A stretch of DNA of 64,000 bases, taken from positions 806,001 to 870,000 of the forward strand of contig NZ_CP012983.1 in the NCBI RefSeq assembly GCF_001411495.1, written 5' to 3'. The DNA is from Burkholderia cepacia ATCC 25416. GTDB taxonomy: Bacteria; Pseudomonadota; Gammaproteobacteria; Burkholderiales; Burkholderiaceae. The translations under genes were made by a program, and so were the position numbers. Each line of letters opens with the position of its first letter. The stretch's first letter is position 1. Shown in pieces: positions 10,104 to 20,988 of this stretch. The notes below the pieces were generated by a model. That model saw only the letters and a program-made list of their open reading frames with translations, did not search any database and was not told the origin of the DNA.

Positions 10104-10850
10104 ATGGGCAAGCTTGCAGGGAAAGTGGCCGTTGTAACCGGTGCGTCGAAGGGTATCGGCGCCGCCATCGCCAAGGCGCTCGCGGCAGAGGGCGCGTCGG
10201 TCGTCGTGAACTACGCAAGCAGCAAGGCCGGCGCGGACGACGTCGTGTCCGCCATCACCACGGCCGGTGGGAAAGCCGTTGCCGTGGGCGGCGACGTGTC
10301 GAAGGCGGCCGACGCGAAAGGCATCGTCGATGCGGCGATCGAAACGTACGGCCGCCTCGACATCCTCGTCAACAACTCGGGCGTCTACGAGTTCGCGCCG
10401 ATCGAAGCATTCGCGGAAGCGCAATACCGCAGGCAGTTCGACATCAACGTGCTCGGGGTCCTGCTCACGACACAGGCCGCCGTCCAGCACCTCGGCGAAG
10501 GCGCCAGCATCATCAATGTCAGCTCGGTCGTCTCGACGCTCACACCGGCGACGACCGCCGTCTACAGCGGCACGAAAGGCGCGGTGGATTCCATCACTGG
10601 CGCACTCGCACGTGAACTCGGGCCACGAGGAATTCGCGTGAACACGATCAATCCGGGCGTGATCGTGACCGAAGGCGCGCAAAGCGCCGGGGTGATCGGA
10701 TCGGAGTTCGAGCATTCGGCGGTCAGCCAGACGCCACTCGGGCGCGTGGGCAGACCGGACGACGTCGCATCGATTGCGGTTTTCCTCGCTTCCGACGACG
10801 CAAAGTGGCTGACGGGCGAGCACATCGTCGCCAGTGGCGGCATGCGCTGA
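10104..10850 (+). CDS. Short-chain dehydrogenase/reductase (SDR, classical)
   Basis: NAD(P)-dependent oxidoreductase of 248 residues, related to 3-oxoacyl-ACP reductase/glucose dehydrogenase-type SDRs. The cofactor motif TGASKGIG is at 12-19, the structural NNSG at 90-93, and the catalytic set is Ser140/141, Tyr154 and Lys158 (YSGTK). The proline-glycine motif NPGVIVTEG follows, and the C-terminus ends LTGEHIVASGGMR, typical of the tetrameric classical type. The start at 10104 (MGKLAGKVAVVTG) is standard for the family. It lies 159 bp after HD copy 1 on the same strand. Its substrate cannot be read from the sequence. Confidence 0.92.
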   Translation: MGKLAGKVAVVTGASKGIGAAIAKALAAEGASVVVNYASSKAGADDVVSAITTAGGKAVAVGGDVSKAADAKGIVDAAIETYGRLDILVNNSGVYEFAPIEAFAEAQYRRQFDINVLGVLLTTQAAVQHLGEGASIINVSSVVSTLTPATTAVYSGTKGAVDSITGALARELGPRGIRVNTINPGVIVTEGAQSAGVIGSEFEHSAVSQTPLGRVGRPDDVASIAVFLASDDAKWLTGEHIVASGGMR

Positions 10851-11011
10851 CGCAGGTTCGCGAAACCGCGGGCGTACCGTCGGCCTCGACATCGACAAAC
10901 AGAAAGGTGACGGTCGTTCCGGATCGCCCGCGGTTCAGCGGGTTGCCGCGTGAGTCTGCCAACGATACGGTTTGGTAACCGGCACACTTTCCGGCTAACC
11001 CCGGCCGCCCC

Positions 11012-11767
11012 CTACACCCTCCCCGCCAAATGAAACCGCGACGCCGGATGCCACAACCGCACCGACGTCGCGACCTGTTCACCGACCCAGGTCCGCCGCC
11101 GGAGCAACAAGCACGGCTCGCCGATTTCCATCACCAGGTGCCGGCGCACCTGCGCATCGGGCTTCTGCGCATAGATCCGGAACTCCGCGCGCTGGATCGG
11201 CGCGAGCCGCACCATATAGTGATTCGGCGTCTCGACCGTGAAGTCCTGTTCCAGATACGCGGGAAACAGCGCCGGGTTCACGTAGCGATCCTCGAACTGG
11301 ATCGGCTCGTCGTCCTCGTAATGCACGATACGCGAATGAAACACCGGCCCCGAGCGCAGCCCGAGCGCTTCGATCGCCTCCGTATCGTCGCTGCTTTCGA
11401 GCAGCAGCACGCGCCCGCTATGCCGATGGCCGCGCTCCGCGATCTCGTCCGCGATGTTGCGGATCTCCAGCACCGTCGATTCGTAATGCCGCCGTTCGAC
11501 GAACGTGCCCGCGCCCTGGATGCGGGTCAGCACGCGCTCGGCGGTCAGCTCGCGCAGTGCACGCGACACCGTCATCCGCGCGACGCCGAACTCCTTGACC
11601 AGTTCGGCTTCGGTCGGAATCGCCCCGCCGGGTTTCCAGTCGCCTTTCGCGATCCGCTCGACGACGTAGCGCTTGATCTGCTGGTAGGCCGGCAGCGCGC
11701 GCGCCGGCACGTCGTCGCCCGACGCGACCGCCAGCCCGGCGGAAAGGTGTCGTTCCGTATGGTTCAT
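11012..11767 (-). CDS. hutC: GntR/HutC-family transcriptional repressor
   Basis: Histidine-utilisation-type repressor of 251 residues. A GntR winged helix (about 27-95: PAYQQIKRYVVERI..., TEAELVKEFGVARMTVSRAL) is joined to a UTRA ligand-binding domain (about 110-245). In hut systems HutC senses urocanate. It is the last gene of a minus-strand operon, 64 bp after the lyase homologue. A near-match to the HutC site pattern TGTA-N2-TACA lies upstream of the first gene of the operon (16647-16656). The HutC subfamily call is good. That it senses urocanate here is uncertain, because the accompanying lyase is atypical and no hutU, hutI or hutG is visible. Confidence 0.8.
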   Translation of the reverse strand: MNHTERHLSAGLAVASGDDVPARALPAYQQIKRYVVERIAKGDWKPGGAIPTEAELVKEFGVARMTVSRALRELTAERVLTRIQGAGTFVERRHYESTVLEIRNIADEIAERGHRHSGRVLLLESSDDTEAIEALGLRSGPVFHSRIVHYEDDEPIQFEDRYVNPALFPAYLEQDFTVETPNHYMVRLAPIQRAEFRIYAQKPDAQVRRHLVMEIGEPCLLLRRRTWVGEQVATSVRLWHPASRFHLAGRV

Positions 11768-11831
11768 GCGCCCTCGCCCGAATGATTGTTAGATATCCAG
11801 ATAACCCGCCACCGCCCCCCGTCGCCCGACG

Positions 11832-13325
11832 TCACAGCACCGGCGGCGGCATCCCTGCGACGATGCCGGTCGCGATCGCGATGTCGTCCGCGAGCGGCCG
11901 GTCGTCCTGGTACGCGGGCACGCGTTCGCGCACGTGCCGCCACAACGTATCGGTGGGCGCGGCCCGCGCCGCGCCGTTCGCCTGCAGATCGTACGCCTGC
12001 GCGGCCGCCAGCATCTCGATCGCGAGCACGCGCGTCGTGTTCTCGATGATGTCGAGCGCCTTCAGCGCCGCCGGCGTCGCATGGCACAGGTGATCTTCCT
12101 GCAGCCCCGACGTGATGCCGCCGTCGAGGCTCGCGGGCGCCGCGAGCCGCTGGTTCTGCGCGACGAGGGCGACTGCCGTGTACTGCGCGATCATGAAGCC
12201 GGAACACGTGCCGCCCGGCGTCGCGAGAAACGCCGGCAGCCCGCTGACGAGCGGATTGACGAGACGGTCGAGACGCCGTTCGGCGATCGCCGCGACCTGT
12301 GCCATCGCGGCCGCGAGGCTGTCCATCGCGAGCGCAATGCCGGCGCCGACCGCATGCGCCTGCGAATGGACGGCCGGTTCGTCGCGCGTGCCGGCGACGA
12401 TCGGGTTGTCGGTGACGGACGCCAGTTCGCGATCGACCACTTCCGCCGTCACGGCGAATACGTCGCGTGCCGCGCCGTGCACATGCGGAATCGTGCGCAG
12501 GCTGAGCGGATCCTGCGTATGCCGGCCGCTCGCCGCGCCGAGCATCCCGCTGTCGGCGAGCAGCGCGCGCAGCCGTGCGCCGACCTGCCCGATGCCGGGC
12601 GAAACGCGTAGCGCGAGCGATGCCGGATCGAAGGAGGCCAGCTGCCCGCCGAGGTTCTCGAAGCTCATCGCCGCGACCCAGTCGGCCCAGTCGAGCAGCC
12701 GCTCCGCGCGGGCGAGCGCGAGCGCGGCCAGCCCCGTCACGCACGGCGTGCCGTTGACGAGGCTCAGCCCCTCCTTCGCACCGAGCACCAGCGGCTCGCG
12801 GCCGATGCGGCGCAACGCTTCGTCGCCGCGCATCCGCTCGCCGCGGTGGCGCGCATGGCCGTGACCGATGCAGACGAGCGCGACGTGCGCCATATGTGTC
12901 AGATACCCGACCGACCCGTGCGCCGGCACCTCCGGCAGGCAATCGTGTTCAAGCAGCGCGACGAGCTGGTCGACGACATCGGCGCGCACGCCGGAATGCC
13001 CGTGCGCGTAATTGTTGATCGCCGCCGCGATGATCGCGCGCGTTTCCGCCGCGCCGAGCGGCGCGCCGACGCCGACCGCGTGGCTCATCAGGATGTTGCG
13101 CGACAGCGTGCTCTGCTGCGCCGGCGACACGATCACGTTGCACAGCGCGCCGACGCCGGTGTTGACGCCGTACGCGCGGATGCCGCGCGCGACGATTTCA
13201 TCGACGAGCTCGCGTGCCACGGCGACACGCACGCGCGCTTCGTCCGTGAGCGCCAGCGGTTCGCCGGCGGCCACCTCCGCGATCTGCCGCCAGTCGAGCG
13301 GCCTTGCCGAACGGAATACGGTCAT
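11832..13325 (-). CDS. Histidine/aromatic ammonia-lyase homologue lacking the MIO-forming triad
   Basis: Aromatic amino-acid lyase fold, 497 residues. Normal family members cyclise an internal Ala-Ser-Gly, within GSVGASGDLAPLAH, to the electrophilic MIO cofactor. Here the segment reads GSVGYLTHMAHVAL (Gly137-Tyr141 onward): the ASG and following residues are absent and the frame is otherwise intact. Other family landmarks remain: YGVNTGVG (52-59), SLVNGTPCVTGLA, QDPLSLRTIP, SVTDNPIV and the QEDH-like GLQEDHLCHATP. The gene lies 7 bp downstream of the ABC ATPase and 64 bp upstream of hutC, so it is co-expressed with an amino-acid importer. It cannot use classical MIO chemistry. It may be a different lyase or mutase, or a binding or regulatory protein. 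Confidence 0.85.
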   Translation of the reverse strand: MTVFRSARPLDWRQIAEVAAGEPLALTDEARVRVAVARELVDEIVARGIRAYGVNTGVGALCNVIVSPAQQSTLSRNILMSHAVGVGAPLGAAETRAIIAAAINNYAHGHSGVRADVVDQLVALLEHDCLPEVPAHGSVGYLTHMAHVALVCIGHGHARHRGERMRGDEALRRIGREPLVLGAKEGLSLVNGTPCVTGLAALALARAERLLDWADWVAAMSFENLGGQLASFDPASLALRVSPGIGQVGARLRALLADSGMLGAASGRHTQDPLSLRTIPHVHGAARDVFAVTAEVVDRELASVTDNPIVAGTRDEPAVHSQAHAVGAGIALAMDSLAAAMAQVAAIAERRLDRLVNPLVSGLPAFLATPGGTCSGFMIAQYTAVALVAQNQRLAAPASLDGGITSGLQEDHLCHATPAALKALDIIENTTRVLAIEMLAAAQAYDLQANGAARAAPTDTLWRHVRERVPAYQDDRPLADDIAIATGIVAGMPPPVL

Positions 13326-13332
13326 GATGGCC

Positions 13333-14124
13333 TCAGTTCGCGGCGCGGTCGTGATGGCTCGACACGAACTGCCGGAAGCGCTCCGAGCACTGGCCGCCGA
13401 ACAGGTCGCCGGGCGTGCCGTCGGAGTCGACCTCGCCCTGATGCAGGAACATCACGCGATTCGACACGTGCCGTGCGAAACCCATTTCATGCGTGACGAC
13501 CAGCATCGTGCGCCCTTCCTCGGCGAGCGAACGCATCACGCGCAGCACCTCGCCGACCAGTTCCGGATCGAGCGCCGACGTCGGTTCGTCGAACAGCATC
13601 ACCTTCGGATGCATCGCGAGCGCACGGGCGATCGCGACGCGCTGCTGCTGGCCGCCGGACAGGTGCGCCGGATAGTAGCCGCGCTTGTCCGCGAGGCCGA
13701 CGCGCGCGAGGAGCGCCTCGGCTTCCTCGACCGCTTCGGCGCGACTGCGCTTCTGCACGCGCAGCGGACCTTCGACGAGGTTGTCGAGCACCGTCATGTG
13801 CGACCACAGGTTGAAGTTCTGGAACACCATCCCGAGCTGCGAGCGGATCCGGTCGACCTGGCGCCGGTCGCCCGGCTGCAGCTTGCCGTCGCGCGCGCGC
13901 TTCATCTTCAGTTCCTCGCCGGCGAGCGCGACAGTGCCGTCGTCGGGCGTTTCGAGCAGGTTCAGGCAGCGCAGGAACGTGCTCTTGCCCGAGCCGCTCG
14001 CGCCGAGGATCGAGATCACGTCGCCTTCGTGCGCGTCGAGCGAAATGCCCTTCAGCACGTGATGATCGCCGAACGACTTGTGGATGTTCCTGACCGACAG
14101 GGCAACGGGAGCAGCGGTGTTCAT
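13333..14124 (-). CDS. Polar amino-acid ABC transporter ATP-binding protein (HisP/GlnQ type)
   Basis: Cytoplasmic ATPase driving amino-acid import, 263 residues. Walker A is GASGSGKST (41-49), the ABC signature is LSGGQQQR, and Walker B with D-loop is [13 protein letters not shown]. The histidine-type insertion before the Q-loop ([21 protein letters not shown]) is as in HisP-like subunits. It sits 27 bp after a permease gene and 7 bp before the lyase homologue, in the order binding protein, permease, permease, ATPase, lyase, HutC. The substrate is probably histidine or a related amino acid, inferred from HutC and the lyase neighbour. Confidence 0.94.
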
Positions 14125-14151
14125 CGGATTCTCCTGGAAGGATGGATGCGC

Positions 14152-14898
14152 TCAGGACGCGACGCGCCGGGCGTCGCGCGCGGCCGCGGCCGGCGCGCCG
14201 GTCTGCTTCGGCGCGCGCAGGTGGCCCGACAGCCGCCATTCGAGCGCGCCGAGCACGCGCACGACAATGAAGTTCAGGCCCAGGTAGATGAGGGCCGCGC
14301 ACACGAACACCTCGGTCGTCCGGTAGGTCTGTTGAATGATCTGCTGCGCGACGCCCGTCACTTCCCACACGGTGACGAGGCTCGCCAGCGCGGTCGACTT
14401 GACGAGCAGCACGGCTTCGGTCGAATACGCGGGCAGGCACTGGCGCAGCGCGATCGGGCCGATCACGCGACGCAGCAGCGCGAAGCCCGAGAGGCCGATC
14501 GAATAACCGGCCTCGATCTGCCCGACCGGCACGGCCATCAAGCCGCCGCGCAGGATTTCGGCCGTATAGCCGGCCGTGCACAGCGCGAGGGACAGCACCG
14601 CGCACACATACGGTTCGCGCAGCAGCGGCCACATGAAGCTCTCGCGGATCACGCCGAACTGGCCGAGCCCGTAGTACACGAGGAACATCTGGATCAGCAG
14701 CGGCGAGCCGCGAAACACGAGGATGTACGCACGCGCGAAGCGGTTCGGCAGCCAGTGCGGCGACACGCGCATCGTGACGATGACGAGCGACAGCAGGCCG
14801 CCGAGCACGAGCGATGCGAAGAACAGGCCGAGCGTGGTCGGCACGGCCGCGAGCAGCTGGCGCAGCGTGTCGAGGAGAAAGTCGAAATCGATGGACAT
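14152..14898 (-). CDS. Polar amino-acid ABC transporter permease (HisM type)
   Basis: Inner-membrane permease of 248 residues with the usual five-helix layout. It opens with a periplasmic/first-helix segment (LLAAVPTTLGLFFASLVLGG) and carries the EAA loop as QIEAGYSIGLSGFALLRRVI (about 155-175), which docks on the ATPase. The motif FRGSPLLIQMFLVYYGL (about 82-98) is the standard amino-acid permease signature. It is preceded by the other permease gene by 12 bp. No truncation or odd residue was noticed. Confidence 0.93.
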   Translation of the reverse strand: MSIDFDFLLDTLRQLLAAVPTTLGLFFASLVLGGLLSLVIVTMRVSPHWLPNRFARAYILVFRGSPLLIQMFLVYYGLGQFGVIRESFMWPLLREPYVCAVLSLALCTAGYTAEILRGGLMAVPVGQIEAGYSIGLSGFALLRRVIGPIALRQCLPAYSTEAVLLVKSTALASLVTVWEVTGVAQQIIQQTYRTTEVFVCAALIYLGLNFIVVRVLGALEWRLSGHLRAPKQTGAPAAAARDARRVAS

Positions 14899-14910
14899 GC
14901 GATCGCTCCG

Positions 14911-15633
14911 TCAGTTGCGTGCGAAATTGCGGCGGAACGAGCGGCCGACAATCGCTTCCGCCCGGTTGAACACGCGGTTCGACAGGCCCGTCATCACGAG
15001 ATAGAGCGCCCCGCCCGCGACGAAGAACACGAAATACTGGTGCGTCGAGTTCGCGGCGATCTGGCTGGTGCGCAGCAGCTCGGCGAGCCCGGTGACCGAG
15101 ATCAGCGCGGAATCCTTGAGGCTCAGTTGCCACACGTTGCCGATGCCGGGCAGCGCGAAACGCAGCACCTGCGGAATCAGGATGCGGCGCAGCACCATGC
15201 TTCGCGGCATGCCGATCGAGCGCGCCGCTTCGAGCTCGCCCTTCGACACGGCCAGCACGGCCGCGCGATACACCTCGGCCTGGTACGCGCCCGAGATCAT
15301 TCCGACCGCCAGCGCGCCGATCACGAACGGCGGCACGCCGATGAAACCTTCCGCGCCGAACCACTGGCCGACGGTCGTGACGAGCGTCGAGCCGCCGAAA
15401 TAGAACAGGTAGATCACGAGCAGTTCGGGCACGCCGCGAAACACCGTCGTGTAGAGGTCGCCGAACACGCGCGCGCTGCGGTGGCGCGACAGTTTCGCGG
15501 CTGCGATGCCGGCGCCGATCACGGCACCGACCGCGAGCGCGGCGAGCGTCAGCGCGATCGTCATCAGCGCTGCGAGCAGCAGGACGCCGCCCCAGCCTTC
15601 GGTTCCGAAGCCCAGCATTTCAAGGATGGCCAT
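14911..15633 (-). CDS. Polar amino-acid ABC transporter permease (HisQ type)
   Basis: Second inner-membrane permease, 240 residues. Its signature YTTVFRGVPELLVIYLFYFGG (shortened here to FRGVPELLVIYLFYFGG) and EAA loop ELEAARSIGMPRSMVLRRI match HisQ/ArtQ proteins. It pairs with the downstream HisM-type permease to form the channel. It begins 92 bp after the binding-protein gene ends, the usual spacing when the binding protein is made in excess. The start codon ATG at 15633 precedes a membrane helix directly. Confidence 0.93.
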   Translation of the reverse strand: MAILEMLGFGTEGWGGVLLLAALMTIALTLAALAVGAVIGAGIAAAKLSRHRSARVFGDLYTTVFRGVPELLVIYLFYFGGSTLVTTVGQWFGAEGFIGVPPFVIGALAVGMISGAYQAEVYRAAVLAVSKGELEAARSIGMPRSMVLRRILIPQVLRFALPGIGNVWQLSLKDSALISVTGLAELLRTSQIAANSTHQYFVFFVAGGALYLVMTGLSNRVFNRAEAIVGRSFRRNFARN

Positions 15634-15725
15634 GCGTGCCTCCCGGCAAGCGTTGAGTGGATCGGCAGGATGCGCGCCGCTGCGCGACCGTCGGGTCGCT
15701 CATGCAGCGGCGGCCACGCGTGTAC

Positions 15726-16586
15726 TTACGGCGTGACGTCGGTCTTGAACCACTTGTCGGCGAGTTTCTTCACGGTGCCGTCCGCGAGTGCCGCGCCGAT
15801 CGCCGCATCGAACTTCGTCTTCAGGTCGGCATCCTGCTTGCGGAACGCGAGGCCCTCGCCCGGCCCCCAGATCGGGCCGCCGAGCTTCGGGCCCGCGAGC
15901 ACGATCGACGCGTTCTCCTTCTTCCCGGTGTTCGCCGCGTAGTACGTGACGTCGTCGAACGATGCGTCGATGCGACCGGCGACGAGGTCGAGATCGCGCT
16001 CGGGCGACGTCTTGTATACGCGGATCGACGCGATGTCCTTGAAGCCGTCGTTGATGAACTTCGTATAGACGGTGCCCGACTGGATGCCGATCGTCTTGCC
16101 CTTCAACTGCTTGCGCAGCGCATCGACGGTTGCCTTGTCCGCATTCGCGTCGCCGGTCAGCTTGACGATCGGCGCGCCGGGCGCGGCCTTCGGCAGGATC
16201 TTCGTATCGGTGACGGCGAACGTCGCGGGCGTGGCTGCATACGGACGCGAGAACAGCAGGATCTTCTCGCGCTCCGGCGTGATCGAGATCGCATCCATCA
16301 GGATGTCGAACTTGCCGGCCTGCAGGCCAGGAATCATCCCGTCCCAGTCCTGCGCGACCATGTTGCACTGGACCTTGATCCGCTCGCACACGTTGGCGAG
16401 CAGTTCCGGTTCGAAGCCGCCGAGCTTGCCGCCCGGCAGCGTGAGGTTCCACGGCGCGTAGCCGCCTTCGAGCGCGACCGTCACAGTCTTCCATTCCTTT
16501 GCCTGCACCGGCGCGGCGAGGGTTGCCGCAGCCGCCGCGATCGCGCCGATCGTCCTGATTGCCCACTTGATGCGCTTGCCGTTCAC
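15726..16586 (-). CDS. Periplasmic amino-acid-binding protein of ABC importer (HisJ/ArgT type)
   Basis: Solute-binding protein capturing a polar amino acid in the periplasm, 286 residues. I chose the GTG at 16586: an AAGGAG Shine-Dalgarno lies 8-13 bp upstream, and it gives a clean signal peptide (MNGKRIKWAIRTIGAI..., cleavage after APVQA at residue 29). The frame is open to 16631, but that extension has no role in a signal sequence. The mature start KEWKTVTVALEGGYAPWNL and the binding-cleft region FDILMDAISITPEREKILLFS are typical of the lysine/arginine/ornithine/histidine family. It is the first gene of the six-gene importer-lyase-HutC operon. Confidence 0.92.
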   Translation of the reverse strand: MNGKRIKWAIRTIGAIAAAAATLAAPVQAKEWKTVTVALEGGYAPWNLTLPGGKLGGFEPELLANVCERIKVQCNMVAQDWDGMIPGLQAGKFDILMDAISITPEREKILLFSRPYAATPATFAVTDTKILPKAAPGAPIVKLTGDANADKATVDALRKQLKGKTIGIQSGTVYTKFINDGFKDIASIRVYKTSPERDLDLVAGRIDASFDDVTYYAANTGKKENASIVLAGPKLGGPIWGPGEGLAFRKQDADLKTKFDAAIGAALADGTVKKLADKWFKTDVTP

Positions 16587-16644
16587 GAGATTTCTCCTTG
16601 CGTTGAAGTTCGTCATCCCTTCGGTCTGCAAGACGCCTCAGGAA

Positions 16645-16658
16645 TTTGTCTATACAAG
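16645..16658 (-). promoter_or_regulatory. Candidate HutC operator overlapping a -10 element
   Basis: The + strand reads TTTGTCTATACAAG. The inner TGTCTATACA (16647-16656) matches the HutC pattern TGTA-N2-TACA at seven of eight positions. Read toward the operon (minus strand), the same bases contain TATAGA, a plausible -10 box, about 65 bp before the GTG start of the binding-protein gene. Repression by steric block of the promoter is inferred. Confidence 0.5.
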
Positions 16659-16694
16659 CATGCAAGAAGAAAAACGGCCGGACAAGCGTTGATC

Positions 16695-16716
16695 AAAAAA
16701 AACCGCGTAAACGCGG
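16695..16716 (-). terminator. Intrinsic terminator ahead of the importer-lyase operon
   Basis: Read on the minus strand this is CCGCG-TTTA-CGCGG followed by eight T (stem 16703-16716, A-run on the + strand 16695-16702). A second small GC hairpin, CCCC/GGGG, lies just before it (16722-16736). The position, 110 bp upstream of the binding-protein start, suits termination of transcripts coming from the DoxX/amidohydrolase operon. It could also be a leader attenuator if the operon promoter lies beyond it. Confidence 0.6.
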
Positions 16717-16780
16717 GAAATCCCCTAAATACGGGGCTCTGACGCGCCTCTTTGCGGGGAATTCCGGCACGGATTTGGTG

Positions 16781-16819
16781 CAGGATGAATGGACAAATCG
16801 CCAGGATGACTAGACAAAT
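16781..16819 (-). repeat. Two 18-bp direct repeats 21 bp apart
   Basis: CAGGATGAATGGACAAAT (16781-16798) and CAGGATGACTAGACAAAT (16802-16819) match at 16 of 18 positions and are spaced two helical turns apart. The TAGACAAATT end of the second repeat equals the left part, read inversely, of the HutC-like site at 16645. These may be further regulator half-sites upstream of the operon. The rest of 16587-17034 shows no credible gene. Confidence 0.45.
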
Positions 16820-17034
16820 TTTGAATTCGATCAGTCGACGCTTGCCGCGCGACATGCGGCGGCGGGCAACTCGACCTCGCGCAAATCGGAGCGCTGACCG
16901 GAACGCCGGTTCATGCTCGATCGATTGTTTCGGGCGCGGGTTTAGCCGGGGTCGATGAACCGTGGCGCCGCTTGCGCTGTCGGTCATCAGGAAGGCAGAC
17001 CTGGATCGTGGCCGCTGCGCAGCCTGCAATGGGA

Positions 17035-17455
17035 TCAGTGCGGCCGATAGGCCGGTGTTCGGGTGGGGGCGTGCCCCGTTGCTGACGTCAGTGCCGGATG
17101 CACGACGTTTCCCACATATTGGCAAGTGCCGAAATCGCGCGGCACGGCGCGAAGGCGAGCCGGGAAATGGTCTGACCATACGTCGGCGTCACCTGGAAAA
17201 CGCCCCCGCTTCGACTTGCTGCCGCCGTACGTGGCGACGATGCTGTCGGTGAAACGGTCGAATTCCTCGGGCGGGCGCCGCGTGCACGTGCGCCGTGTCG
17301 TCATGCGGCCCGACCGCGAGCGTCGGCGCCGGTACGACGAAGGGTTTCGGCCACGCCGCGAACGCCGTGCGTGCGGCGCGGAAACCGCCCGCCCACATCG
17401 GCGCCGGGCATGTCGAGCGAACGTGCTTCGTGATCGCCGCTCCTTCCTGCTGCAA
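17035..17455 (-). pseudogene. Possible frameshifted small gene of unknown function
   Basis: Two minus-strand frames join to give one plausible protein of about 140 residues. The first part (from about 17455) includes MWAGGFRAARTAFAAWPKP and PAPTLAVGPHDDTAHVHAAPA. The second (to the stop at 17035) includes EEFDRFTDSIVATYGGSKSK and FGTCQYVGNVVHPAL. The break is in a C-rich run near 17266-17275; removing one C joins APA to EEFDRF. No clear start codon was found; an ATG at 17398 (MWAGG) and a TTG at 17455 are options. It follows DoxX on the same strand. I do not recognise the family. It may be a decayed gene, a sequencing error or chance. Confidence 0.3.
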
Positions 17456-17475
17456 TCGTCTGGACAGCAGACGAT
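17455..17475 (-). terminator. Hairpin directly after doxX stop
   Basis: A perfect 8-bp stem with a 5-nt loop, ATCGTCTG-N5-CAGACGAT, overlaps the last base of the DoxX-family stop codon. There is no T-run after it on the minus strand, so it is at best a weak terminator or an mRNA-stabilising hairpin. Confidence 0.35.
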
Positions 17476-17921
17476 CAGCTTCGTCCGTCCCCTTCCCCGC
17501 TTCGCACGTCGCCGAGCATCGTGACGAGGACGAGTGCCGCGATCAGCCCGAGATGCTCGAAGAAGCTGTTGAGCGCCATGAAATGCGCAGCGCCCGTCTG
17601 GTTCCAGAAGTCGTTCGCCACCGCCATCGCGACGAGCGTCAGCATGCCGAGGCTGCCGGCGCCGAGCCACGTGAAGCGGCGAAACACGATGCACAGCGAG
17701 CCGCCGATCTCGACGACGACCGCCAGTGCAGCCCACAACGCGGGCGGGTGCAAACCGAAATGCGCCTGCTCCGCGATTGCTGCGTCGAAGTGCATCGCCT
17801 TGTTGATCCCGCCGATCAGAAAGGCGGACACGAGTGCAAGTCGAACCAGCGCGCCGATCCACGGCTGCGCGAGCAGCGCACGGATCCACGCGGGGCTGTA
17901 CCGGCCGGTTGTCGTCACCAT
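17475..17921 (-). CDS. DoxX-family integral membrane protein
   Basis: Small four-helix membrane protein of 148 residues with the DoxX layout: helices at about 22-42, 60-80, 88-106 and 118-138, and the family-typical LVSAFLIGGINKAMHF near the first helix. The ATG at 17921 was chosen because it lies one base after the amidohydrolase stop (TGACATG) and yields a normal DoxX start; the longer upstream frame is only the shadow of the amidohydrolase. DoxX proteins are linked to quinone/thiol redox functions in other bacteria. Its role here is unknown. It is the last gene of the YcaC-XapX-amidohydrolase-DoxX set. Confidence 0.85.
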   Translation of the reverse strand: MVTTTGRYSPAWIRALLAQPWIGALVRLALVSAFLIGGINKAMHFDAAIAEQAHFGLHPPALWAALAVVVEIGGSLCIVFRRFTWLGAGSLGMLTLVAMAVANDFWNQTGAAHFMALNSFFEHLGLIAALVLVTMLGDVRSGEGDGRS

Positions 17922-17922
17922 G

Positions 17923-19812
17923 TCAGACCGCCCAGCAGGAACAGCCGAACGCGCCCCAGAAGCCCTTCGTGTCCGACGTCGGCAATGCGCTGCCCCACGC
18001 GCTCGCGTGCGCATGCTGGTGCACGTTGCACGCATTCGCGCAGCCGCACATCGCGGCGGCCGCCGCGCGTTGCAGCGGTGCGCCGCTGCGCTGCGTCGCG
18101 CCCCAGCCGCCGTAGCCGCCGTACTCGCGCACCGGCGACCAGTCCGGCATCGCGGGCGGAATCGGCGCGTCATGCGACGCGAACGGGCCCGCGCCCCACA
18201 CGATCCGGCCGCCGACCACCGTCAGCAACGCGGTCGTGCCCGCGATGTCGTCCTCCGCGCACGCGAAGAAGTCGCGATCCGGCACGACCACGTCGGCCAA
18301 CTGCCCGACCGCGATCCGCCCTTTCTTGCCGACCTCGTTCGAGAACCACGTCACGTATTCGGTCCACATGCGCAGCGCGGTCTCGCGATCGAGCAGGTTG
18401 CGCTGCGGATACATGCGCAGCCCGCCGATCGTCTTGCCCGTCACGAGCCAGGACAGCGACACCCACGGGTTGTACGACGCCACGCGCGTCGCGTCGGTGC
18501 CGGCCGACACCTTGAGGCCCTTCGACAGCATCTTCGCGACCGGCGGCGTCGCTTCGGCCGCCTGCGCGCCGTAACGCTCGACGAAGTATTCGCCCTGGTA
18601 CGCCATCCGGTGCTGCACCGCGATGCCGCCGCCCAGCGCCGCGATACGATCCATCGACTTTTCGGTGATGGTTTCCGCGTGATCGAAGAACCAGTTCAGC
18701 CCTTCGAGCGGGATGTCCTTGTTCACCTTCTCGAACACGTCGAGCGCGCGGCTGATCGTTTCGTCATACGTCGCATGCATGCGCCACGGCCAGCGGTTCT
18801 GTGCGAGCACGCGCACGACGCCCTCGAGATCGTCTTCCATCTGCGCCGGCAGGTCCGGACGCGCGACGCGGAAGTCCTCGAAGTCGGCCGCCGAGAACAC
18901 CAGCATTTCGCCCGCGCCGTTGTTGCGGAAGTAGTCGGTGCCATCGTGATACTTCGTGCTCTTCGTCCAGTTCACGAAGTCTTCCTTCTCGGCGTTCGGC
19001 TTCTGCGTGAACAGGTTGTACGCGATCCGGATCGTCATCTCGCCCGCGTCGTGCAGCTTGCGGATCACCTCGTAGTCGTCCGGATAGTTTTGCGAACCGC
19101 CGCCCGCGTCGATCACGCCGGTCACGCCGAGACGGTTCAGTTCGCGCATGAAGTGGCGCGTCGAGTTGTACTGGTATTCGAACGGCAGCTTGGGCCCCTT
19201 CGCGAGCGTCGCGTACAGGATCGTCGCGTTCGGGTTCGCGAGCAGCAGCCCGGTCGGGTTGCCCGCGGCATCGCGCAGGATCGTGCCGCCCGGCGGCTCC
19301 GGCGTGTCCTTCGTGTAGCCGACCACGCGCAGCGCGGCCGCGTTCAGCAGCGCGCGATCGTACAGGTGCAGGATGAACACCGGCGTATCGGGCGCGGCCG
19401 CGTTGAGTTCGTCGATCGTCGGCAGGCGCTTCTCGGCGAACTGGTGCTCGGTGAAGCCGCCGACCACGCGCACCCATTGCGGCGCGGGCGTGATCGCCAC
19501 CTGCCGCTTGAGCATGTCCATTGCAACCGCGAGCGACGGCACGCCGTCCCAACGCAGTTCCATGTTGTAGTTCAGGCCGCCGCGAATCACGTGGCAGTGG
19601 TTGTCGATCAGGCCCGGCAGCGCGCCGCGGCCCTCGAGATCGACGACCTTCGTCGCGCGGCCCGCGAGCGGCATCACGTCCGCGTCGTGGCCGACCGCGA
19701 CGAAGCGGCCGTCCTTGATTGCGACGGCGGTCGCGACGGGGTTCGCGCGGTCGAGGGTCGTGAACCTTCCGTTGTGAAGGATCAGATCCGGTTGGGACTC
19801 GGTTGCGGTCAT
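17923..19812 (-). CDS. YtcJ-type amidohydrolase with Cys/His-rich C-terminal tail (copy 1)
   Basis: Predicted metal-dependent hydrolase of the amidohydrolase superfamily (YtcJ/AepA branch), 629 residues from the ATG at 19812. The first metal motif is GLIDNHCHVIRGG (about 69-81); MHATYDE, WFFDHAET and SAGTDATRVASYNPW mark later metal strands. The closing composite domain reads GQLADVVVPDRDFF and LLTVVGGRIVWGAGPF. After residue about 575 a tail holds CGCANAC, NVHQHAHA and a final GCSCWAV, which looks like an added metal site. The substrate is unknown. XapX lies 19 bp upstream and DoxX follows at 1 bp. A paralogue without the Cys tail is at 61176-63059. Confidence 0.9.
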   Translation of the reverse strand: MTATESQPDLILHNGRFTTLDRANPVATAVAIKDGRFVAVGHDADVMPLAGRATKVVDLEGRGALPGLIDNHCHVIRGGLNYNMELRWDGVPSLAVAMDMLKRQVAITPAPQWVRVVGGFTEHQFAEKRLPTIDELNAAAPDTPVFILHLYDRALLNAAALRVVGYTKDTPEPPGGTILRDAAGNPTGLLLANPNATILYATLAKGPKLPFEYQYNSTRHFMRELNRLGVTGVIDAGGGSQNYPDDYEVIRKLHDAGEMTIRIAYNLFTQKPNAEKEDFVNWTKSTKYHDGTDYFRNNGAGEMLVFSAADFEDFRVARPDLPAQMEDDLEGVVRVLAQNRWPWRMHATYDETISRALDVFEKVNKDIPLEGLNWFFDHAETITEKSMDRIAALGGGIAVQHRMAYQGEYFVERYGAQAAEATPPVAKMLSKGLKVSAGTDATRVASYNPWVSLSWLVTGKTIGGLRMYPQRNLLDRETALRMWTEYVTWFSNEVGKKGRIAVGQLADVVVPDRDFFACAEDDIAGTTALLTVVGGRIVWGAGPFASHDAPIPPAMPDWSPVREYGGYGGWGATQRSGAPLQRAAAAAMCGCANACNVHQHAHASAWGSALPTSDTKGFWGAFGCSCWAV

Positions 19813-19831
19813 GTGCGTCACCTCGTATCGA

Positions 19832-19999
19832 TCAGAAGCCAAAAAGCTGTTTGACGGCGGGAATGGCCTGCACGCCGATCACCATGCCGAGCAACCCGAC
19901 AAGGGCAATCAGCGGCGGTGCCGGAGAACGGACCTTGATCGCGCTGTAGATCACGCCGATCAGCAAACCCGCGCCAAGGGAAACCAGATAAGGTTCCAT
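19832..19999 (-). CDS. XapX-domain small membrane protein (copy 1)
   Basis: Small protein of 55 residues, two predicted membrane helices. The sequence MEPYLVSLGAGLLIGVIYS, then VRSPAPPLIALVGLLGMVIG, shows the XapX signature (a glycine-rich first helix, SPAPP and a second helix). The start at 19999 was chosen because upstream residues are hydrophilic and out of character. It lies 19 bp before the amidohydrolase and 169 bp after the YcaC-like gene. XapX proteins have no known biochemical role. A second copy lies divergently at 21166-21447. Confidence 0.8.
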   Translation of the reverse strand: MEPYLVSLGAGLLIGVIYSAIKVRSPAPPLIALVGLLGMVIGVQAIPAVKQLFGF

Positions 20000-20168: not shown

Positions 20169-20855
20169 TTACTTCGCCGGAACCGGCGGAATCGACTCGT
20201 GCGGCGTCGCCGTGCGCGGTGCAGCCTTGTGGACCATCGTGTACGCGTAGTCGACACCCATCCCGTACGCGCCCGAGTGTTCCTTCGCGATCGCCATCAC
20301 AGCGTCATAGGTCTCGCGGTGCGCCCAGTCGCGCTGCCATTCGAGCAGCACCTGCTGCCAGGTCACCGGCACGACGCCGGCCTGCACCATCCGCTGCATC
20401 GCGAAGTCGTGCGCGTCCTTCGACGTGCCGCCCGACGCATCGGCGACCATGTAGATCTCGTAGTCGCCTTCGAGCATCGCGCAGAGCGCGAACGTCGTGT
20501 TGCAGACCTCCGTCCACAGGCCCGACACGACCACCTTCTTGCGGCCGTTTGCGGCCAGCGCGTCGCGCACCTTCTGGTCGTCCCACGAGTTCATCGACGT
20601 GCGTTCGAGCGTCTTCTGGTTCGGGAACACGTCGAGCAGTTCGGGGTAGGTGTAACCCGAGAAGCTGTCGCTCTCGACCGTCGTGATCGTGGTCGGGATG
20701 TTGAACACCTTCGCGGCCTTCGCGAGCCCGACGACGTTGTTCTTCAGTACCTGGCGGTCGATCGACTGCACGCCGAACGCCATCTGCGGCTGCTGATCGA
20801 TGAAGATGATCTGGCTGTTGTGGGGAGTGAGTACTTCAAGTTTCGGATTGCTCAT
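20169..20855 (-). CDS. YcaC-like hydrolase (isochorismatase/cysteine-hydrolase superfamily)
   Basis: Cytosolic cysteine hydrolase of 228 residues. Catalytic Asp20 lies in IIFIDQQPQM, Cys118 in GLWTEVCNTTFAL, and Lys81 in NQKTLERTSMNSW is the likely third residue. The family includes nicotinamidase, isochorismatase and YcaC; close sequence style (SWDDQKVRDAL, VADASGGTSKDAHDFAMQRM) fits YcaC, whose substrate is not established. The ATG at 20855 was preferred over 20864 because AAAGGA lies 10 bp ahead. It is the first gene of the XapX-amidohydrolase-DoxX set and is divergent from XapX copy 2. Confidence 0.88.
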   Translation of the reverse strand: MSNPKLEVLTPHNSQIIFIDQQPQMAFGVQSIDRQVLKNNVVGLAKAAKVFNIPTTITTVESDSFSGYTYPELLDVFPNQKTLERTSMNSWDDQKVRDALAANGRKKVVVSGLWTEVCNTTFALCAMLEGDYEIYMVADASGGTSKDAHDFAMQRMVQAGVVPVTWQQVLLEWQRDWAHRETYDAVMAIAKEHSGAYGMGVDYAYTMVHKAAPRTATPHESIPPVPAK

Positions 20856-20988
20856 GGCGGTCATATCCTTTGACGCGGGAAAAGAGAGAGCCAGCCTCAC
20901 CGGCCAACCGGGAGGCGCCCACTGCGCTGTGACGGGAGGTTCGCCTACCAGCCGGTGTCATTCAACACGCGAATTCATCGTAGCGCCA

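Follow-up and report, generated by a model that had tools for sequence, protein, structure and literature searches.

A histidase-fold protein with a deleted MIO motif in an importer–HutC operon of Burkholderia cepacia: a candidate hercynine lyase

Introduction

Histidine ammonia-lyase (HAL, HutH) depends on MIO because ammonia, unaided, leaves poorly. Ergothionase converts ergothioneine to thiourocanate and trimethylamine. A passage of a 2026 paper states that ergothionase does without the MIO cofactor (PMC13405746). Hercynine, or trimethylhistidine, is described in an excerpt of another paper as the ergothioneine precursor in fungi and actinobacteria (PMC7653990). For the Hut regulator HutC, a section of PMC12977541 gives TGTA-N2-TACA as the site and urocanate as the effector. 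HutC may answer to ligands other than urocanate; a portion of PMC12772324 names PCA as a second ligand in P. aeruginosa. In Pseudomonas, two hutH copies are induced under iron limitation, and the part of the report that describes them does not tell them apart (PMC8069873). The open-licence literature that we searched describes neither a hercynine lyase nor an entry of hercynine into the Hut pathway.

Here, we analyze a 64,000-nucleotide stretch of the Burkholderia cepacia ATCC 25416 genome (contig NZ_CP012983.1, positions 806,001 to 870,000), referred to below as the window. A prior sequence-only reading of this DNA had pointed out a HAL homolog with the MIO-forming Ala-Ser-Gly (ASG) deleted. 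We compared its gene, the surrounding operon, and their relatives with HutH, ergothionase, and the importers and regulators that accompany them.

Results

A HAL-fold protein with an in-frame deletion of the MIO motif

The gene is the fifth of six on the minus strand, which encode, in order, a solute-binding protein (SBP), two permeases, an ATPase, the lyase-like protein, and HutC (Table 1). An ABC importer and HutC had been noted as its companions from the sequence alone, and both were found as described. Residues 137-150 of the protein are GSVGYLTHMAHVAL, and alignment to HALs leaves a three-residue gap at the Ala-Ser-Gly position. The HAL-fold motifs YGVNTG, SLVNGTP, SVTDNPIV, and QEDH are present, and the Pfam Lyase_aromatic profile covers the protein from position 1 to 466 of 466 (497.5 bits); a domain search of the protein found nothing beyond this lyase domain. 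The motif sequence, the alignment gap, and the full-length profile match thus bear out the claim that the deletion is in frame and the fold kept.

Against TIGR01225, the NCBI HutH equivalog, the window protein scores 452.8, below the cut-off of 539.15. Several MIO-less Pseudomonadaceae proteins exceed the same cut-off (for example, at 551.7), so annotation with TIGR01225 will name them histidine ammonia-lyase.

Table 1. Features of the operon in the window.
Feature	Position	Strand	Remarks
HutC-family repressor (GntR/UTRA)	11012..11767	-	
MIO-less HAL-fold lyase, proposed hercynine trimethylamine-lyase	11832..13325	-	497 aa, intact ORF
Codons for GSVGYLTHMAH, stretch with the ASG deletion	12885..12917	-	
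ABC importer ATPase, HisP-like	13333..14124	-	
ABC importer permease, HisM/ArtM-like	14152..14898	-	
ABC importer permease, HisQ-like	14911..15633	-	
Periplasmic solute-binding protein, SBP_bac_3	15726..16631	-	nearest in sequence, among solved structures, to nopaline- and octopine-binding proteins
Predicted HutC-type operator box, TTGTATAGACAA	16646..16657	-	~15 bp before the TTG opening the SBP frame, ~30 bp before the first ATG

Outside the deleted motif, much of the HAL site is retained. Y53, H83, N195, Q277, R283, Q413, and E414 are unchanged in 25 of 25 aligned rows of the clade to which the window protein belongs, and we take all of these except Q413 to be imidazole/carboxylate-site residues of HAL. 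The window protein therefore shares with HutH both the fold and the imidazole/carboxylate residues. S143 is deleted and Y280 replaced by Leu in all 25 rows, and the alignment shows Ala or Pro for F329. A structure model of the window protein is least certain at residues 402-409, beside E410.

The deletion defines a conserved clade

The motif GSVGYL[ST]HMAH occurs in all of the best 120 of 4,099 database homologs; the two best among the matches listed come from Burkholderia diffusa and B. territorii. Conversely, GASGD is found in none of 96 ORFs longer than 450 aa with the motif G[ST][VA]GY[LI], a set in which some genes appear more than once and which also contains four rows (L019, L057, L107, L112) from two sister clades. 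The clade, at 74-100% identity, is present in 36 of 65 same-genus genomes. A search of 398 Pseudomonadota genomes returned 27 matches at E <= 1e-87, four of which are ASG histidases (L104-L106, L108); the clade is present in 23, and the ASG deletion was read in every one of these 23 members. Of 299 family genomes, 68 gave a match, one of them (G549) at just 43% identity, a level also seen for an ASG histidase read in another genome (L109). All 80 loci from named Pseudomonas genomes, the best 80 out of 588 rather than a random draw, carry GSVGYLTHMAH and Leu at 280, with OpuAC, permease, and ATPase genes in the stretch.

We also checked whether the homologs are scattered broken copies, which would have undermined the initial interpretation. 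This was not so: partial or broken clade copies occur in four of about 67 family genomes (G620, G709, G612, G664). Across 13 pairs that each include the window gene, dN/dS ranges from 0.08 to 0.30, and the clade gene is under purifying selection. Conservation and purifying selection together led us to reject the broken-copy reading. Two Burkholderiaceae assemblies contain broken clade genes (L144, L145), in two pieces in G612 and with a stop in G664, which points to possible occasional loss of the system.

We placed 52 proteins in a maximum-likelihood tree, where the 21 rows of the clade form a monophyletic group (support 100/99) distinct from canonical HAL (14 rows, 100/100) and from the ergothionase-like proteins (7 rows, 100/100). 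The window clade is joined, with support 95/91, by two more clades that lack MIO, D1 (L019) and D2 (L107, L112); a long-branch warning for D1 and some ergothionase-like rows makes this sister relation less sure. The D1 gene (L019:6713-8248; GSVGYLIATAH, about 40% identical) directly adjoins an OpuAC-type betaine importer at L019:8312-11748. D2 proteins (in the regions L107:9457-16611 and L112:9435-11291) have GSVGYLGPEGH or GSVGYLAPEAH and keep Tyr280. In L107, the neighbors of D2 are an opine/HisJ-like importer and, together with a reductase, a Rieske VanA_C oxygenase, and L112 has a binding protein similar to that of L107.

Clade genes keep company with importers and hut genes

We typed the neighbors of the 22 clade loci that remain from the 398-genome set when the window is excluded, using BLAST against reference proteins in 20-kb stretches. 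An importer lies beside the gene in 20 of the 22 loci. Ten have an OpuAC/ProV-type importer (L084, L085, L090, L092, L093, L095-L099), eight a HisJQMP-like importer of the window type (L082, L083, L086-L088, L091, L094, L100), and two a BCCT carrier (L102, L103); in the 20-kb stretches of L089 and L101, we found no recognized importer. Checks of type by library scan placed a ProV-family ATPase above cut-off in L092, OpuAC in L084, and BCCT in L102 and L103. An importer is thus the gene's usual companion, but the type of importer differs among the loci. Family scans of picked neighbor ORFs from ten loci, some of them probably spurious frames, found no trimethylamine-handling gene.

Genes of the Hut pathway (hutU, hutI, hutG, or hutF) are present in 18 of the 22 stretches, several with the complete set, and a canonical ASG histidase in 15. 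In L083, and in L114 from the 299-genome family set outside the 22 loci, the clade gene is followed by hutU, hutD, hutI, hutF, and hutG; the stretch has no histidase and the genome has one elsewhere. The window operon itself lacks hutU, hutI, and hutG, from which it had been concluded that this is not an ordinary histidine pathway. That absence stands, but the gene's place among hut genes in the 18 other loci qualifies the conclusion. The window genome (8.6 Mb, four contigs) has a second PF00221 gene on another contig (L011), a canonical ASG histidase with hutC, hutU, hutI, hutF, and hutG.

One locus, L102 of genome G372, combines the clade gene with hutU, hutI, hutG, hutF, hutC, and a BCCT carrier. 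G372 has three PF00221 genes: the clade gene, an ergothionase-like gene that shares its cluster, and a gene for an ASG protein that reads NQDKVSMG rather than NQEDHVSM. With the three genes typed in this way, no canonical histidase was found in G372. The ergothionase-like gene and an OsmF-like binding protein (L102:3580-6050) lie inside the hut cluster that holds the MIO-less gene.

In Pseudomonadaceae, the importer could be compared with both the clade gene and hutH. The clade is present in 46 of 148 genomes, and hutH scores above the NCBI cut-off in 86, among them all 46. A close OpuAC binding protein (query from L092; E <= 1e-170, a threshold chosen after the list was seen) lies 2.7-3.6 kb from the clade gene in 41 of the 46 genomes and is present in none of the 40 hutH-positive genomes without it. 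Relaxing the threshold to E <= 1e-149 adds three of these 40 (G720, G793, G786); at 1e-60, a threshold loose enough to admit remoter OpuAC proteins, the count is 15 of 40 without the clade gene versus 44 of 46 with it. A Fisher test with G720 counted as positive gives p = 9e-18, for genomes that are related and not independent events. Three exceptions among the 46 have other importers, HisJQMP-like in G419 (L091) and G794 (L141) and a BCCT carrier in G792 (L140); G779 and G800 are the two further exceptions. Three of the 15 genomes found at 1e-60 (G712, G718, G786) have such an OpuAC protein 1.5-7.5 kb from hutH, and in L095 (17185-18315) and L099 (17194-18249) a second OpuAC-type binding protein adjoins canonical hutH, apart from the importer of the clade gene. 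Hut loci can therefore hold a second kind of OpuAC that does not track the clade gene.

The importer and regulator of the window operon

The window SBP is of the opine/HisJ type, matching nopaline-binding protein (213 bits) and octopine-binding protein (207 bits) best, and we found no OpuAC-type binding protein in the operon. By hand alignment, it keeps an Asp at what we take to be the position of the amino-group-binding Asp of HisJ/LAO. Its MDA and FDD stretches are common to SBPs beside clade genes and slightly changed beside D2 proteins.

The window repressor passes the HutC model TIGR02018 (286.3 bits against a cut-off of 220) and fails a second HutC model, NF011575 (220.4 against 424). 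The predicted operator box is one mismatch from the published HutC core, a TGTA-N2-TACA-type palindrome, and the genome's histidase gene has a copy of it that differs at one position (L011:9539-9550). The form TTGTNTANACAA, a pattern derived from these two sites in the window and L011, precedes the SBP gene exactly in 14 of 15 Burkholderiaceae relatives and with one mismatch in all 15, several of which carry the box at hutU too. By chance, a box with one mismatch is expected 0.08 times per 20 kb (mononucleotide shuffles, five loci). The stretches L084, L085, L086, L087, L088, L107, and L112 yielded no HutC-type box, which confines the rule to Burkholderiaceae and some gammaproteobacteria.

A consensus scan of positions 10850-17900 found no sigma-70-type promoter. 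A terminator-like hairpin that has eight T (16703-16716), of a kind no commoner than in shuffles, lies immediately upstream and separates the operon from genes for an amidohydrolase (17923-19842) and an isochorismatase (20169-20900). We rejected these two as members of the system; among L023-L030, the close relative L029 alone has them, and the terminator-like site intervenes.

A separate ergothionase-like gene in Burkholderia

Burkholderia has another MIO-less protein (GSIGEAD...), about 31% identical to the window protein, whose best solved match is ergothionase 6s7j (267 bits). Of the 299 family genomes, 18 have a thiourocanate hydratase that scores above the NCBI cut-off; 11 of the 18 belong to the window's genus, and each of these 11 carries the ergothionase-like gene some 1.5 kb from the hydratase gene. 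The window protein is therefore probably not the ergothionase of the genus. One of the ergothionase-like proteins (L017:7123-8835) opens with a signal-peptide-like stretch, so the Burkholderia enzyme may act in the periplasm. The ergothionase of Burkholderia sp. HME13 (BAM63550) does not appear by name in the best 120 of 4,099 homologs or in a second listing of 120 matches, each with shortened names and one name per cluster.

Discussion

We consider it probable that the window protein is a MIO-independent β-elimination lyase that acts on a quaternary ammonium compound derived from histidine, with hercynine (Nα-trimethyl-L-histidine) as the likeliest candidate. Its substrate, leaving group, product, proton base, and HutC binding are what we infer from context and homology. 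The adjacent importer would take up hercynine. The lyase would hold the imidazole and carboxylate as HAL does, abstract the β proton, and expel trimethylamine; trimethylammonium is already a leaving group, so MIO would not be needed. The resulting urocanate would lift HutC repression of the window operon and the hut genes and would then be broken down by HutU, HutI, HutF, and HutG. We propose hercynine because it would suit two unrelated families of betaine importers and an opine/HisJ-like importer alike, fit a histidine pocket, need no MIO, and give a product recognized by Hut and HutC. The weakest link is the importer of the window itself, which is HisJQMP/opine-like and not of the betaine type. 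The sequence-only reading had offered three roles for a paralog that cannot make MIO: other chemistry, a substrate sensor, or a partner of a MIO enzyme. Other chemistry is the best supported of these, and the sensor and HutH-partner roles are less likely.

The nature of the importer bears on the first alternative, a lyase that likewise gives urocanate but from another Nα-substituted histidine, whether dimethylhistidine or an opine (histopine, for example). Nopaline- and octopine-binding proteins, the closest to the window SBP, have Nα-substituted amino acids as ligands, and the hut context of 18 of the 22 loci fits such a substrate. We nonetheless regard it as unlikely, as the OpuAC/ProV and BCCT importers of 12 of the 22 loci point to a quaternary amine, and a secondary amine should, on chemical grounds, leave poorly without MIO.

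It is also rather improbable that the protein is a catalytically inert paralog, serving as a urocanate or histidine sensor or as a subunit that modulates canonical HutH. Loss of MIO would suit such a role, as would the sharing of a locus with canonical hutH in 65 of the 80 Pseudomonas loci (best 80 of 588). A 2007 genetic study of Pseudomonas fluorescens SBW25 reportedly found two hutH copies, one of them non-functional. Against inertness, the HAL-site residues examined are invariant in 25 rows save for MIO, Y280, and F329; the domain search found no domain besides the lyase; the gene is associated with an importer; and it is present in G372, where we found no canonical histidase.

That the window protein is an ergothionase strikes us as very unlikely. 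The two have the same fold, no MIO, and Leu for Y280, and relatives of the window gene lie near betaine importers, but the proteins fall in separate clades and FMIAQY replaces FGTIQK. Moreover, in all 11 same-genus genomes with a thiourocanate hydratase above cut-off, it is the other MIO-less gene that lies beside it, and no such hydratase scores above cut-off in the window genome. A slow, MIO-independent histidine ammonia-lyase is scarcely credible: histidine-site residues are kept and G372 has hut genes with no canonical histidase found, but ammonia leaves poorly without MIO and a canonical histidase co-occurs in 46 of 46 Pseudomonadaceae genomes with the clade gene.

The hercynine reading can be set in a broader, more tentative frame, for and against which we see nearly equal weight. 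Loss of MIO in the HAL superfamily might mark a switch by which a tertiary amine, rather than ammonia, becomes the leaving group, with the GSVGYL clades forming a second MIO-free branch of betaine lyases besides ergothionase. The main clade would then provide an entry from hercynine to urocanate and Hut, and the sister clades, D1 with its adjoining OpuAC importer and D2 with a Rieske oxygenase nearby in one locus, would act on other betaines. If the hercynine reading itself is right, a gene found in many Burkholderia, Paraburkholderia, and Pseudomonas genomes, and often named histidine ammonia-lyase, encodes a different enzyme, which could explain the second hutH-like copy in Pseudomonas hut loci. 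A betaine would join the nutrients that enter through urocanate, bacteria would have a further route to trimethylamine, and the role of MIO would become testable in the same pocket with a better leaving group and no cofactor.

Comparison with known systems

HutH (P. putida 1b8f; Thermoplasma 7tqr) has ASG/MIO, Y280, and F329, whereas the window protein has ASG deleted, Leu at 280, and Ala/Pro at 329 in its clade, and falls below the NCBI HutH cut-off (452.8 versus 539.15). Pseudomonas hut loci contain a second hutH-like gene that belongs to the same clade as the window gene, at about 53% identity, but its importer is mostly OpuAC/ProV rather than HisJQMP/opine type.

The premise that all relatives need MIO overlooked ergothionase, a solved HAL-fold relative that eliminates trimethylamine without it. 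Like the window protein, the Treponema denticola enzyme (6s7j) has the HAL fold without ASG and Leu at 280; by analogy, the window protein may work like it, and the expected chemistry is the same elimination of trimethylamine. The two are 27% identical and belong to different clades. The FGTIQK stretch of ergothionase, whose Lys is presumably catalytic, becomes FMIAQY in the window protein, so that the Lys is missing, and the window protein differs further in keeping N195 and Q413 of HAL. Their company also differs, thiourocanate hydratase for ergothionase and hut genes for the clade.

EgtU, an ergothioneine ABC importer of the quaternary-amine family, shows that transport of a histidine betaine is within the reach of that family; the relevant section of its description reports a preference for ergothioneine and only a weak response to hercynine (PMC9732360). 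The window has no importer of the EgtU family. MIO-free trimethylamine elimination on the HAL fold is known from ergothionase; what appears to be new is a second MIO-free branch, linked to urocanate and HutC by its genomic context.
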